A stretch of DNA of 64,000 bases, taken from Gemmatimonadaceae bacterium. Its GTDB lineage: Bacteria; Gemmatimonadota; Gemmatimonadetes; Gemmatimonadales; Gemmatimonadaceae. Shown here piece by piece: positions 29,740-46,252 of this stretch (within the stretch, counting starts at the first letter, position 1; each line of letters opens with the position of its first letter). Position numbers and translations under genes: made by a program. Location: assembly GCA_020851035.1 (NCBI GenBank), contig JADZDM010000021.1, forward strand, positions 372,001 to 436,000, given 5' to 3'. Below the pieces are notes generated by a model. The model was not told the DNA's origin, made no database searches, and saw only the letters and a list, made by a program, of their open reading frames with translations.

Positions 29740-29763
29740 GGTCAGGGGGGCGGGATTTGTGCG

Positions 29764-29823
29764 CCTTCACAAGGACTCCTTCACAAGGACTCAGAGTGAA
29801 ATGCTGGTGCGGGACTCTGAGTC
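29764..29823. repeat. GACTCAGAGTC palindrome family, copy 1, with 14-bp tandem duplication
   Basis: CCTTCACAAGGACT is repeated directly at 29764-29777 and 29778-29791. It runs into a hairpin with 10-bp perfect arms, GACTCAGAGT (29788-29797) and ACTCTGAGTC (29814-29823). The right flank CATTTCCCTCTGG matches the flank of copy 2 (33014-33055). It starts 25 nt after the oxidoreductase stop. Confidence 0.8.
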
Positions 29824-29936
29824 ATTTCCCTCTGGCAGCCGGTCCCAACCCGTCAGCAAAAGCGCGCGGCATCATCGAATTCGTAGCGCGAACGCCGCCG
29901 CGACCGGGCGCGCCGAGGGGTGCGTTTCGGGATCGC

Positions 29937-29974
29937 TTGACACCTTGTGTGTACTAGATCATATAGTACACCAC
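29937..29974 (+). promoter_or_regulatory. Promoter and palindromic operator of the YtrA-like operon
   Basis: A TTGACA box at 29937-29942 and a TATAGT box at 29962-29967 (19-bp spacer; CATATA at 29960 gives 17) lie just before the regulator's ATG at 29975. The palindrome GTGTACTA-N7-TAGTACAC (29949-29956 and 29964-29971) covers the spacer and the -10 box, an ideal repressor site. Transcription starting 6-8 nt after the -10 would begin at or next to the ATG, so a leaderless mRNA is likely. Confidence 0.75.
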
Positions 29975-30418
29975 ATGCTCCCCTTCGACGTCAGCATCGC
30001 CCCCGGCGACTCGCCGTACCGGCAGGTCGTCTACGCCGCCACCAAGGCCATCCTCGGCGGCGTGCTGGTGCCGGGCGATGCGTTCCCGTCGGTGCGGGAA
30101 CTCAGTCAGGCGCTCAAGATCAATCCGAACACGGCGCAGAAAGTGGTGGCGGAGCTGGTGCGCGACGGCCTGCTCGTGGTGCAGCCGGGCGTGGGCACGC
30201 TGGTGGCGCGGGCGCCGAAGGGCCATGCCGACGAGCGCCGTCGGTTGCTGGCGGCGGGGGTCGAGGCACTGCTGGTGGAGGCGCGCCGGCTGGGCGTGGA
30301 TGTGGCCGACCTGCACGATGCCGTCGACGCGCAGTGGGGTCGACTCTTCGGCGACGAGGGCGCGCGTCCGGTGCCGCAGGCACGCAGTGGCACGAGCGCG
30401 GCCCGGCGGCGCGCATGA
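29975..30418 (+). CDS. GntR-family regulator, YtrA subfamily
   Basis: A 147-aa repressor with a winged helix (YRQVVYAATKAILGGVLVPGDAFPSVRELSQALKINPNTAQKVVAELVRDGLLVVQPGVGTLVA, about residues 14-78) and the short helical tail typical of YtrA proteins, which lack a large ligand domain. YtrA-type regulators usually sit before ABC transporters and autoregulate. Here the gene overlaps the following ATPase gene by 4 nt (ATGA), and a matching palindrome covers its promoter. No Shine-Dalgarno sequence precedes its start. Confidence 0.92.
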   Translation: MLPFDVSIAPGDSPYRQVVYAATKAILGGVLVPGDAFPSVRELSQALKINPNTAQKVVAELVRDGLLVVQPGVGTLVARAPKGHADERRRLLAAGVEALLVEARRLGVDVADLHDAVDAQWGRLFGDEGARPVPQARSGTSAARRRA

Positions 30419-31332
30419 ACGCCATCGACGTCGCGGGCTGCTCGTACCACTACAAGCGCGGCACCGATGCGCTGCATGCGCTGGACCTGGCGGTCCCCAC
30501 CGGCGCGATCTACGGGTTGATCGGCGTCAACGGTGCCGGCAAGTCCACGCTGCTGCAATGCTGCGCCGGCTTGCGCGTGCCGTCGGCCGGCCGCATCGAG
30601 GTCTTCGGTAAGCCGGTGCTCGCCGACAGCCCGATCGTGGCCGGTGTGCTGAGCTACGTGGCCGAGGCGGTGAAGCTGCCGCAGCGGATGACGTTGCGTG
30701 CGGTGCTGGACTACGTCGCGCCGCTGCACCGCCGCTGGGATGCGGCGCTGCTGCAGGCGCTGCTGGAACGCTTCTCGCTCGACCCATCGCAGCGCGTCAG
30801 CGTCCTCTCGCGCGGATCGCAGATGAAGGCGGCACTGCTCTGCGCGCTGGCCGCGAGGCCGCGCCTGCTGGTGATGGACGAGCCCTTCACCGGCATGGAT
30901 GCGCTGGTGCGCGATGACCTCGTGCGCGGGCTGCTCGGGGCGGCCACCGACGCCGGCACGACGGTGCTGGTCGCCTCGCACGACCTGGCCGAGCTGGAGA
31001 CGATGATCGACCACCTCGGCATCATCGCCGGCGGGCGGATGGTGGTGAGCGGTGCGATGGATGCGCTGCGCGAACGGTTCCAGCGCGTGACCGTGAGCGC
31101 GACGGGTGCGGTGCTCGATGCCGGTGGGGACGAGCGTGCATGGCTTGGCGTGGAACGCAGCGCGCGACGGTTGTCGTTCCTTGCCGACGCGAGCGTGGTT
31201 CCGCTGCACCCGGAGATGCTGCGGGCGCGGTTTCCCGGCGCGGACGTGCAGGTGCAGGAGCCGTCGGTGCGGGAGCTCTTCACCACACTGGCGCGGCGGG
31301 AGTTGCCGGCCGAACGGCGAGCGTCGGCATGA
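30415..31332 (+). CDS. ABC transporter ATPase (YtrB-like)
   Basis: A 305-aa ATPase. Walker A is GVNGAGKST, the Q-loop region is SYVAEAVKLPQRMTL, the signature is degenerate (VLSRGSQMKAALLCALA with SRGS for SGGQ), Walker B is LLVMDEPFTGMD and the H-loop is VASHDLAELE. A C-terminal extension of about 90 residues is predicted to fold separately. Degenerate signatures are common in YtrB-like transporters that work with large integral-membrane partners; the next gene is such a partner, overlapping by 4 nt. Confidence 0.92.
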   Translation: MNAIDVAGCSYHYKRGTDALHALDLAVPTGAIYGLIGVNGAGKSTLLQCCAGLRVPSAGRIEVFGKPVLADSPIVAGVLSYVAEAVKLPQRMTLRAVLDYVAPLHRRWDAALLQALLERFSLDPSQRVSVLSRGSQMKAALLCALAARPRLLVMDEPFTGMDALVRDDLVRGLLGAATDAGTTVLVASHDLAELETMIDHLGIIAGGRMVVSGAMDALRERFQRVTVSATGAVLDAGGDERAWLGVERSARRLSFLADASVVPLHPEMLRARFPGADVQVQEPSVRELFTTLARRELPAERRASA

Positions 31333-32888
31333 CGTGGCGCGGACAGGTGTGGCATGTGTTCCGGAAGGACTGCCGGAATCTCTGGGCGCTGTACCTTCTG
31401 GTGGCGGTGGCTGCGCTGATCAACGCCAGTCTCGCGTTGCCTGGCGGGGTAGACCTCGGGATGGGCGGCATCGTCCCCGGCATGCTGTTCCTGTACGCGG
31501 CGCCGGCGGTCACGCTGGCGGTCGTCTTCTCGGACAACCCCGCGACGCCGCTGGAGTTCTGGGGCACACTGCCGCTTGAACCGTCAGCGGTGGCGGCATC
31601 CAAGCTGCTGGCGATCGTGACGACGATGGCGCTCGTCACCGGCACATTCGTCGCGCTCTCGCAGGTGTGGGGCGCGAGCATCCCGAGCATCATCGCGACG
31701 ATGCCACGCCTGCTCGGCGCAATGCTCGCGCTCACTTCGGTTGGGCTGGGTTTCGGCCTCTCGCGTGGGGGCCGGCCGCACTTCATCATCGTGACGAGCC
31801 TCTACCTGAGTTTCGGGTCATGGGCAGCCATCATCGCTCGACGGTCCACCGCAGCGGTCGACTTCGGTCATCGGATCGCGAATGCCGTGCCGCATGCGGC
31901 GTGGCTGCTGGCAGCAGGCGCACTCGTCTGGGCACTGGTGCGCCTGTACCGCGTGCGTGAGGCCTCTCGCACGCTGCAGACCGCCGTCGGTCTCGCGCTG
32001 ACGGCGCCGGGCCTGATGGTCGCGCGTGAGATCTACGCCGGCCCACTCTCGTCGCACGGCCTGGACGTGGCGTCGGTCCGTGCACAGGCGCACTGGGATC
32101 CCGTGACCGAGGATCGCCTCGAGATCGCCCTCACCACCACCGATGACGATCACGGTCGCCTGCGGGTGCTGCACGATGGCGTCGTCATCGCGGAGCTGCG
32201 GGACGGCACACGTGAACAGCTCGAGATCACCGGGCCTCGCGCGCTCGAGCGGGCCGACGGCCATATGGGAGGCGTGACGCTACGCGCCGGCACGCCGGTC
32301 GTGATCGGCGGCCAGCCCGCGCCCGCTGCAATCACGCGCTACGCCGCCGTCTGGGTCAACAACAGCACGCGCGCACGCCGGGAGGTGCACGGCGTCGCAC
32401 GGTTCATCGTCGAGGGACGGCTCGAGACGTACGACGTGCACGAGATCGACCGTTTTCCCACGCGCGGCCAGCGGGCGGCGCTCGCCGACGGGCGCGTGCG
32501 CACGGTGCGGCTCTCGGGCGCGAGCGGTGACACGGCGGGGCCGCGCATCCACCTCGGCGAACGCTGGCTGATGCTGGGCGGTCGCGACGAGTCGCCCTGG
32601 CCACTGCCCAATGGCCTCAACCACCTGCAGCTCCGCTTTGCGCTGCTCTCCGGCGATGGACGGCAGTTGCTGCCGCTGCGCAGCGGCGTCGAGGGCTATC
32701 CCAACAGCCTCGGGATGCCCGGCTTCACAGCCGCGCAGGTGGTGTGGACGCTGCGGCCCGCGGTGTGGAGCGTCGCCCGCCCACCCGTCACCAACGCCTG
32801 GCTGGACAGTGCGCAGGTCATCGTCGGCGCGCCCGTGTTCCGGAGCGCCGTCCGCGTGCGCGCGGTGGCGGAGATCACGCCGCCCTGA
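31329..32888 (+). CDS. Membrane protein with N-terminal ABC-2-like helices and large extracytoplasmic domain
   Basis: A 519-aa protein, third gene of the YtrA-like operon. About six transmembrane helices fill residues 18-240 (AALINASLALPGG, IVPGMLFLYAAPAVTLAVVF, LLAIVTTMALVTGTFVALS, MLALTSVGLGFGL and others). The remaining 280 residues contain no helix and are beta-rich. The helices probably form the permease for the upstream ATPase. The soluble domain is not recognised; it could sense or bind an envelope-active compound. ATGA-type overlap with the ATPase gene. Confidence 0.78.
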   Translation: MTWRGQVWHVFRKDCRNLWALYLLVAVAALINASLALPGGVDLGMGGIVPGMLFLYAAPAVTLAVVFSDNPATPLEFWGTLPLEPSAVAASKLLAIVTTMALVTGTFVALSQVWGASIPSIIATMPRLLGAMLALTSVGLGFGLSRGGRPHFIIVTSLYLSFGSWAAIIARRSTAAVDFGHRIANAVPHAAWLLAAGALVWALVRLYRVREASRTLQTAVGLALTAPGLMVAREIYAGPLSSHGLDVASVRAQAHWDPVTEDRLEIALTTTDDDHGRLRVLHDGVVIAELRDGTREQLEITGPRALERADGHMGGVTLRAGTPVVIGGQPAPAAITRYAAVWVNNSTRARREVHGVARFIVEGRLETYDVHEIDRFPTRGQRAALADGRVRTVRLSGASGDTAGPRIHLGERWLMLGGRDESPWPLPNGLNHLQLRFALLSGDGRQLLPLRSGVEGYPNSLGMPGFTAAQVVWTLRPAVWSVARPPVTNAWLDSAQVIVGAPVFRSAVRVRAVAEITPP

Positions 32889-32895
32889 CGCGGGG

Positions 32896-32918
32896 TGTTC
32901 ACGATCCCCGTCCCCGTG
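32896..32918. repeat. Copy 2 of the dispersed 23-mer
   Basis: These 23 bases are the exact reverse complement of 109-131. They start 7 nt after the stop of the membrane protein gene and have the same orientation relative to it as copy 1 has to its upstream gene. CACG and CCGTG at its ends could pair. Confidence 0.75.
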
Positions 32919-32926
32919 CACACGGC

Positions 32927-33010
32927 TCACTCACGCGCCGACCACACCTCCCCGGGCAGTTCCCCACCGTCTCCGCCGGTGCGTCCACCTCCCGGATGTG
33001 CACGAGTGTA
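32927..33010 (-). pseudogene. Truncated, frameshifted second copy of the small Cys-rich gene
   Basis: On the minus strand this reads LVHIREVDAPAETVG, then after a frame change ELPGEVWSARE and stop. The intact neighbour (33111-33308) ends CVHIWEVEAPDEAVAELPAAVWSVG. The two match at most positions over about 25 residues, including the last. Everything upstream of the His-Ile-Arg part is missing, and the break lies directly at the palindrome 33014-33055. I read this as the remnant of a tandem gene duplication cut by the palindromic element. Confidence 0.7.
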
Positions 33011-33013
33011 AAG

Positions 33014-33055
33014 AACGACTCAGAGTCAGGCCAGGGGGCCTGACTCTGAGTCGTT
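33014..33055. repeat. GACTCAGAGTC palindrome family, copy 2
   Basis: A perfect 19-bp stem: AACGACTCAGAGTCAGGCC (33014-33032), a 4-nt loop AGGG, and its exact complement at 33037-33055. The flank TTGCCCTCTGCG after the right arm is shared with copies 1 and 3. It lies between an intact small gene and its truncated copy. With strong GC pairing and no T-run it is not a standard intrinsic terminator. Confidence 0.9.
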
Positions 33056-33110
33056 TGCCCTCTGCGCGACCCGCCAACAGCGGTACCGTTCCCACGCGCG
33101 CGGACCGGAT

Positions 33111-33308
33111 TCACCCCACCGACCACACCGCCGCCGGCAGCTCGGCCACCGCCTCGTCCGGCGCCTCCACCTCCCAGATGTGCACGCAGCACCCGCACCC
33201 ACGGTTGTCGCTGCACGACGCCAGCCGCTCCCGCCACCGCGCCATCCAGGCATCCACGCACGCCAGCGCCTCCGGCCGGTCGGATTCGACGATGATCGTG
33301 ATGCGCAT
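33111..33308 (-). CDS. Small Cys-rich protein, unknown (65 aa)
   Basis: The reading MRITIIVESDRPEAL starts at 33308; upstream in-frame sequence does not look coding. The protein has an N-terminal beta-strand, a helix (EALACVDAWMARWRERLASC) and a compact cysteine cluster CSDNRGCGCCVHIWEVEAP, then a short tail ending VWSVG. Five or six Cys within 35 residues suggest metal or cluster binding. I do not recognise the family. A degraded second copy lies just downstream, which supports it being a real gene. Confidence 0.65.
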   Translation of the reverse strand: MRITIIVESDRPEALACVDAWMARWRERLASCSDNRGCGCCVHIWEVEAPDEAVAELPAAVWSVG

Positions 33309-33430
33309 GGAGAAGACCGCCACTGGACCACGGGGAAGCGACGCGACGGCACCAGGCCACCGTGACACGCCGGCGCAGATCGGCGCGGCCCGACCATCCG
33401 GCCGGTGATCGCCCGCCCGCGATTCCGTTA

Positions 33431-34195
33431 ATGTACGGCATGACACCCTGGGTCTCCCGGCTTCTGATCGCCAACATCCTCGTCTACTTCCTGCAGCTCT
33501 CCCTCAAGGGGGCCACCGGACAGCTGGCGCTGGTCCCCGCCCTGCTGCTGCAGCGCCCGTGGACGATCCTCACCTACATGTTCGCGCACAGCACCATGGG
33601 GTTCTCGCACATCGCGTTCAACATGCTGGCGCTCTACATCTTCGGGCCGCGCGTCGAGCTGCGACTCGGCGGCACCCGGTTCATCACCCTCTACCTCATC
33701 GCCGGCATCAGCGGCGGCCTCCTCTCGCTCGTCTTCACCCCGTACTCGCCCATCGTCGGCGCCTCGGGCGCGATCTTCGGCGTGCAGCTCGCCTTCGCCA
33801 AGTTCTTCCCGCGCGAGCGCATCTTCATCTGGGGCGTGATCCCGGTGGAGGCACGGCTGCTGGTGCTGATCATGACCGTCATCTCCGTCTTCGGCGGGCT
33901 CTCCGGCGGCGGCAGCACGGCCCACTTCGCCCACCTCGGCGGCTACGTCGGTGCCTTCTTCTACCTGCTCGCCATCCAGAAGTCCCTGCCGAAGGAACAG
34001 TGGGTGAAGAAGGTGGAGGGACCGGCGCCACACGCCATCCCGATCGGCGACTGGAACGCCATCGACCTCACCAGCGTGCACGAACTGAATCGCGGCGAGG
34101 TCCAGCGCATCGTCGACAAGATCAAGGCCACCGGTGAACGCAGCCTGAGCGTGCAGGAGCGGCAGTTCCTCGGACACTTCACCCCGAAGGCCTAG
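33431..34195 (+). CDS. Rhomboid-family intramembrane serine protease
   Basis: A 254-aa polytopic membrane protein. The catalytic Ser is in VGASGAIFGVQ (S112) and the catalytic His in HFAHLGGYVGA (H168); the oxyanion-helper Asn is in HIAFNMLALYIFG. Six helices are arranged as in GlpG. The C-terminal 60 residues form a soluble tail with LDLTSVHELNRGEVQRIVDKI and the conserved LSVQERQFL of this bacterial subfamily. It cleaves transmembrane segments of unknown substrates. ATG 33431 chosen; an ATG at 33440 is also possible. Confidence 0.93.
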   Translation: MYGMTPWVSRLLIANILVYFLQLSLKGATGQLALVPALLLQRPWTILTYMFAHSTMGFSHIAFNMLALYIFGPRVELRLGGTRFITLYLIAGISGGLLSLVFTPYSPIVGASGAIFGVQLAFAKFFPRERIFIWGVIPVEARLLVLIMTVISVFGGLSGGGSTAHFAHLGGYVGAFFYLLAIQKSLPKEQWVKKVEGPAPHAIPIGDWNAIDLTSVHELNRGEVQRIVDKIKATGERSLSVQERQFLGHFTPKA

Positions 34196-46141: not shown

Positions 46142-46252
46142 CGACTCAGAGTCCGAGGGACCCGCGTGACTCAGACCCCTTTTCCCACGGCAAACGACTC
46201 AGAGTCCGAGGGACCCGCGTGACTCAGACCCCTTTTCGCGCAGACCCCTTTT
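46142..46252. repeat. GACTCAGAGTC family, copies 3a and 3b (53-bp tandem)
   Basis: A 42-bp block is repeated exactly at 46142-46183 and 46195-46236. It begins CGACTCAGAGTC and ends GACTCAGACCCCTTTT. The 11-nt spacer CCCACGGCAAA resembles the sequence before the first block. A third partial unit, CAGACCCCTTTT, is at 46241-46252. The family core GACTCAGAGTC and the flank (CGCTTGCCGGGCCCTCTGCG on the minus strand) match copies 1 and 2. The gap 45960-46322 holds no gene. Confidence 0.85.

Follow-up and report, generated by a model that had tools for sequence, protein, structure and literature searches.

TIRtron/TIRYT elements resemble REP/RAYT systems and have been reported in Acidobacteria, Stenotrophomonas and others; the motif GGGGWSAS is common to many, not all, of their TIRs (Di Nocera et al. 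2013; PMC3733652). TIRYTs belong mostly to Y1 subclass 2.1, in which a C-terminal helix-turn-helix extension is usual, though not required of all TIRYTs, and the rule for REP/RAYT is one transposase, one repeat family (PMC6006769). REPs are mostly located between convergent or tandem genes, and hairpin-forming repeat dimers can stall replication, be cleaved by SbcCD and give rise to deletions (PMC3733652). Here we analysed a 64,000-nt stretch of a Gemmatimonadaceae genome, referred to as the window, in which a perfect palindrome lies beside the truncated copy of a small Cys-rich gene (Table 1). What had appeared as a lone, odd palindrome is now placed in a genome-wide, transposase-linked repeat family.

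Table 1. Positions of the genes, repeats and edge duplications discussed in the text (window numbering unless a contig or locus is named)
Feature	Position	Strand	Description
Intact small Cys-rich gene	33111-33308	minus	65 aa, GCGCC motif
Pseudogene remnant of second copy	32926-33004	minus	last ~25 codons, 79 bp; one-base deletion; N-terminal ~40 codons gone
Perfect palindrome	33014-33055	none	arms 33014-33032 / 33037-33055, 19 bp, 4-nt loop, 100% complementary
Second copy of element	29788-29823	none	degenerate core 29788-29798 and core 29813-29823, 25 nt apart
Third cluster	46143-46232	none	53-bp tandem unit, two cores and GACTCAGACCCC variants
Y1 transposase gene	G000:C21:174683-175498 (L068:2184-2999)		same contig as palindrome
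Edge duplications	window 29774-29801; L004:1470-1505; L020:1478-1505; L070:484-513; L074:541-566
Edge duplications, further	L075:626-651; L078:690-721; L081:675-708

The palindrome consists of two GACTCNGAGTC cores, inverted, at 33017-33027 and 33042-33052, which are 25 nt apart from start to start. Folded as single-stranded DNA, it reached z = -7.7; an Rfam search of the window gave no match. Genome-wide analysis revealed 82 sites of the 11-bp core, against 0 for a reversed-pattern control, and 66 copies of the exact form GACTCAGAGTC, against 0–2 in each of 59 relatives, two same-genus ones included. The core spacing is exactly 25 nt in 17 of 42 close neighbour spacings, and, the core itself aside, GACTC-N26-GAGTC is the most frequent pairing. 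Tandem arrays hold 14 of the 31 clusters examined, and many core doublets are direct, not inverted. As read from these counts, the palindrome belongs to a transposase-linked repeat of a known kind, present in dozens of copies. A bidirectional terminator between convergent genes, instead of a mobile element, would fit a palindrome with a strong hairpin between convergent gene ends; however, no terminator-like site with a T-tract was found, and the core recurs at 82 sites, some of them in tandem arrays and some beside a transposase gene, which makes this explanation highly improbable.

The genome carries three Y1 transposase genes (PF01797), on contigs C21, C2 and C25 (L068, L082, L083). Around the gene on C21, cores lie in inverted orientation at L068:2111, 3217 and 3276, together with GACTCTGTCCCC units. 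The complement of this unit, GGGGACAGAGTC, contains GGGGACAG, and five copies are found at L068:3120-3262; GGGGACAG fits the GGGGWSAS motif, whereas the upstream copy GGGGTCTGAGTC does not. The encoded protein has HTH (the HUH motif) at residue 97 and YIELNP (Y---NP) at residue 157, 60 aa apart, and its comparison with solved structures gave no match. The other two Y1 genes each lie between inverted arrays of their own repeats, which form separate dispersed families (TGCACTGTCACCGG, 85 copies; TTCAAGGGGACNGNGATCTTGAA, 65 copies). We infer from sequence that the Y1/HUH transposase of C21 most likely moved and spread the core repeat family.

The small Cys-rich gene is almost an orphan in its family. 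It is present in 2 of 179 genomes of the family, and its sole other homologue, with 49% identity, sits among different neighbour genes in the genome G009; a scan of the genome contigs for the small protein recovered this homologue alone. Matches in G018 and G089 lay inside longer unrelated frames and were discarded. Searches of Pfam and NCBIfam with the 65-aa protein returned no family. The fold predicted by AlphaFold is beta-alpha-beta-alpha-beta (pLDDT 89.8), and Foldseek retrieved nothing for this model at E 0.001 or better, just general alpha-beta sandwich folds. As a separate observation, outside this genome the C21 transposase is likewise matched best in G009 (47%), on a separate contig from the small-gene homologue (L087, L032); this co-occurrence may be due to chance.

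Local alignment of the remnant with the intact gene gave a score of 93. The best of 2000 dinucleotide shuffles reached 54 (mean 27.8, sd 4.4), and alignments with random window pieces peaked at 50. The two copies form direct repeats of 84% identity (32938-32962 versus 33119-33143) and 85% identity (32964-33004 versus 33146-33186). One base is absent from the remnant, and as a result the C-terminal residues match across two frames: it reads VHIREVDAPAETV, then ELPGEVWSARE-stop, against VHIWEVEAPDEAV...ELPAAVWSVG in the intact gene. The strong similarity is limited to the coding part; the 3′ flanks alone score 16 versus 15.2 for shuffles. On these alignments, the remnant is genuinely homologous to the 3′ portion of the small gene, which confirms the claim of an earlier, sequence-only reading that about 25 C-terminal residues match between gene and fragment once a frameshift is allowed. 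The remnant is non-functional.

Over 64 aligned bases, the intact gene and the remnant are 81% identical to each other, and 70% and 66% identical, respectively, to the G009 homologue. At the 12 sites that differ between the copies, G009 agrees with the intact gene at 7 and with the remnant at 4. Given these identities and agreements, the two copies most likely diverged from each other later than from the G009 lineage, and both have changed since. The identities lend support to the duplication that had been proposed earlier, with one copy decaying afterwards, and the similarity did not vanish when tested against this intermediate homologue. The differences between remnant and intact gene number 2, 4 and 6 at codon positions 1, 2 and 3, respectively, which is too small a number for dating the decay.

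The homology of the remnant stops at 33004 and the hairpin arms start at 33014. Hence the palindrome is indeed adjacent to the truncated end, but not exactly at it as the sequence-only reading had put it, since 9 bp intervene. Both lie in a gap of 222 bp, bounded by the stop codons of the ABC permease gene and the small gene, with little else inside. The 55 bp past the palindrome (33056-33110) score 20 against the missing N-terminal half, with a shuffle mean of 21.6. Because this half is not found on the far side of the palindrome, a clean insertion is disfavoured: the copy is truncated next to the palindrome, as had been described, but simple insertion of the element into it is not supported. 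Direct insertion might still apply if the N-terminal half beyond the element was then lost through the transposase reaction or a second deletion, and the element's family is tied to an HUH transposase; against this, an insertion and an immediately adjacent deletion are both required, and the N-terminal half has left no trace beyond the palindrome. We consider such a course of events unlikely. The more general suggestion that the element can insert is plausible, because it comes from a dispersed, transposase-linked family.

These observations enable us to propose a tentative model, which we favour at somewhat less than even weight, in which a deletion ending at the hairpin truncated the small-gene copy within a mobile-repeat scenario. 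Initially, the small gene would have been duplicated in tandem. An inverted doublet of the mobile repeat would then have landed in the spacer between the two copies, where such repeats are usually found. Afterwards, the downstream copy may have lost its first half, along with its upstream spacer, to a deletion with one end set at the 19-bp hairpin's base, where a replication fork might have stalled or a hairpin nuclease (e.g. SbcCD) might have cut. The remnant has also lost one base and no longer functions. A deletion with its end at the hairpin is reasonable, because hairpin-forming repeat dimers are known sites of replication stalling and cutting (PMC3733652). Counting for this model, the palindrome shares its 25-nt core spacing with other clusters. 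Counting against it are the 9 bp without assignment between remnant and hairpin, and the prospect of such an adjacency arising by chance in a 222-bp gap, perhaps one in ten by our own estimate.

Chance adjacency is nearly as likely as this hairpin-ended deletion. An unrelated deletion would have truncated the copy, and the mobile repeat would have settled independently in the non-coding gap, where such repeats survive. The gap between the two stops offers little else, the repeat family is spread genome-wide, and REPs favour spaces where neighbouring genes are convergent or in tandem (PMC3733652), all of which fits a coincidence; an adjacency within 9 bp, however, is somewhat improbable by chance. 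The palindrome may thus have disrupted the gene copy or may merely lie beside it. No close relative carries the locus, and its pre-deletion state was not seen in any relative examined. The same-genus genome G002 is without the whole 29741-33435 block: it has neither the GntR/ABC-transporter cassette nor any copy of the small gene, and its oxidoreductase and rhomboid genes are neighbours; G001 has other neighbour genes at this place; as a result, both were unusable as an empty site. In the window, two repeat copies (29788-29823 and 33017-33052) bracket the GntR/ABC cassette, an arrangement that may hint at recombination between the two.

Apart from the truncated copy, tandem duplications of 13-18 bp were observed at cluster edges, comprising the outer flank and the outer half of the core, and cut near the core centre. 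They are present in 7 of 28 clusters of the core family, with 0.9 expected from the window background rate, and were flagged in 11 of 20 clusters of a second repeat family (L117-L136). The second copy of the element in the window has an exact 14-bp tandem duplication on its left edge, and no edge duplication is present at the palindrome itself. These duplications look like the footprint of core-centre cleavage or hairpin slippage. That the Y1 transposase cuts at the core centre and leaves them behind, the same activity making breaks like the truncation of the gene copy, is a rather doubtful extension. The edge duplications are a more interesting side observation than the truncated copy and its hairpin, which are real but of an ordinary kind. 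With its three transposase-repeat pairs, the genome provides a usable case for studying the movement of small repeats and their possible role in DNA breakage.

Among known systems, REP/REPINs with their RAYTs likewise have a transposase gene between inverted palindromes and dispersed high-copy repeats confined to the genome (PMC2817692, PMC3116915), with inverted doublets that fold into a hairpin. However, the present repeat has no GTAG (or GTRG) foot, no conserved GTAG being found in the aligned flanks of 74 cores, and many of its doublets are direct; furthermore, the best NCBIfam match of the C21 protein, REP_Tyr_transpos, reaches 70.1 bits, under the curated cut-off of 80. The likeness to TIRtrons/TIRYTs lies in inverted repeats carrying GGGGWSAS (here GGGGACAG) on either side of a Y1 HUH transposase, in repeats scattered as dimers and clusters, and in several transposases per genome, each with its own repeat. 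The reserve with which we file the core repeat as a putative TIR family of the TIRtron/TIRYT kind is due to the C-terminal helix-turn-helix extension typical of subclass 2.1, which was not found in the C21 protein with Pfam. Our literature search found no paper describing such elements in Gemmatimonadota, and the repeat thus represents a known kind of element in a phylum without a description in the literature searched. It differs from described TIRtrons/TIRYTs also in its near-perfect 11-bp palindrome and in its favoured spacing of 25 nt.
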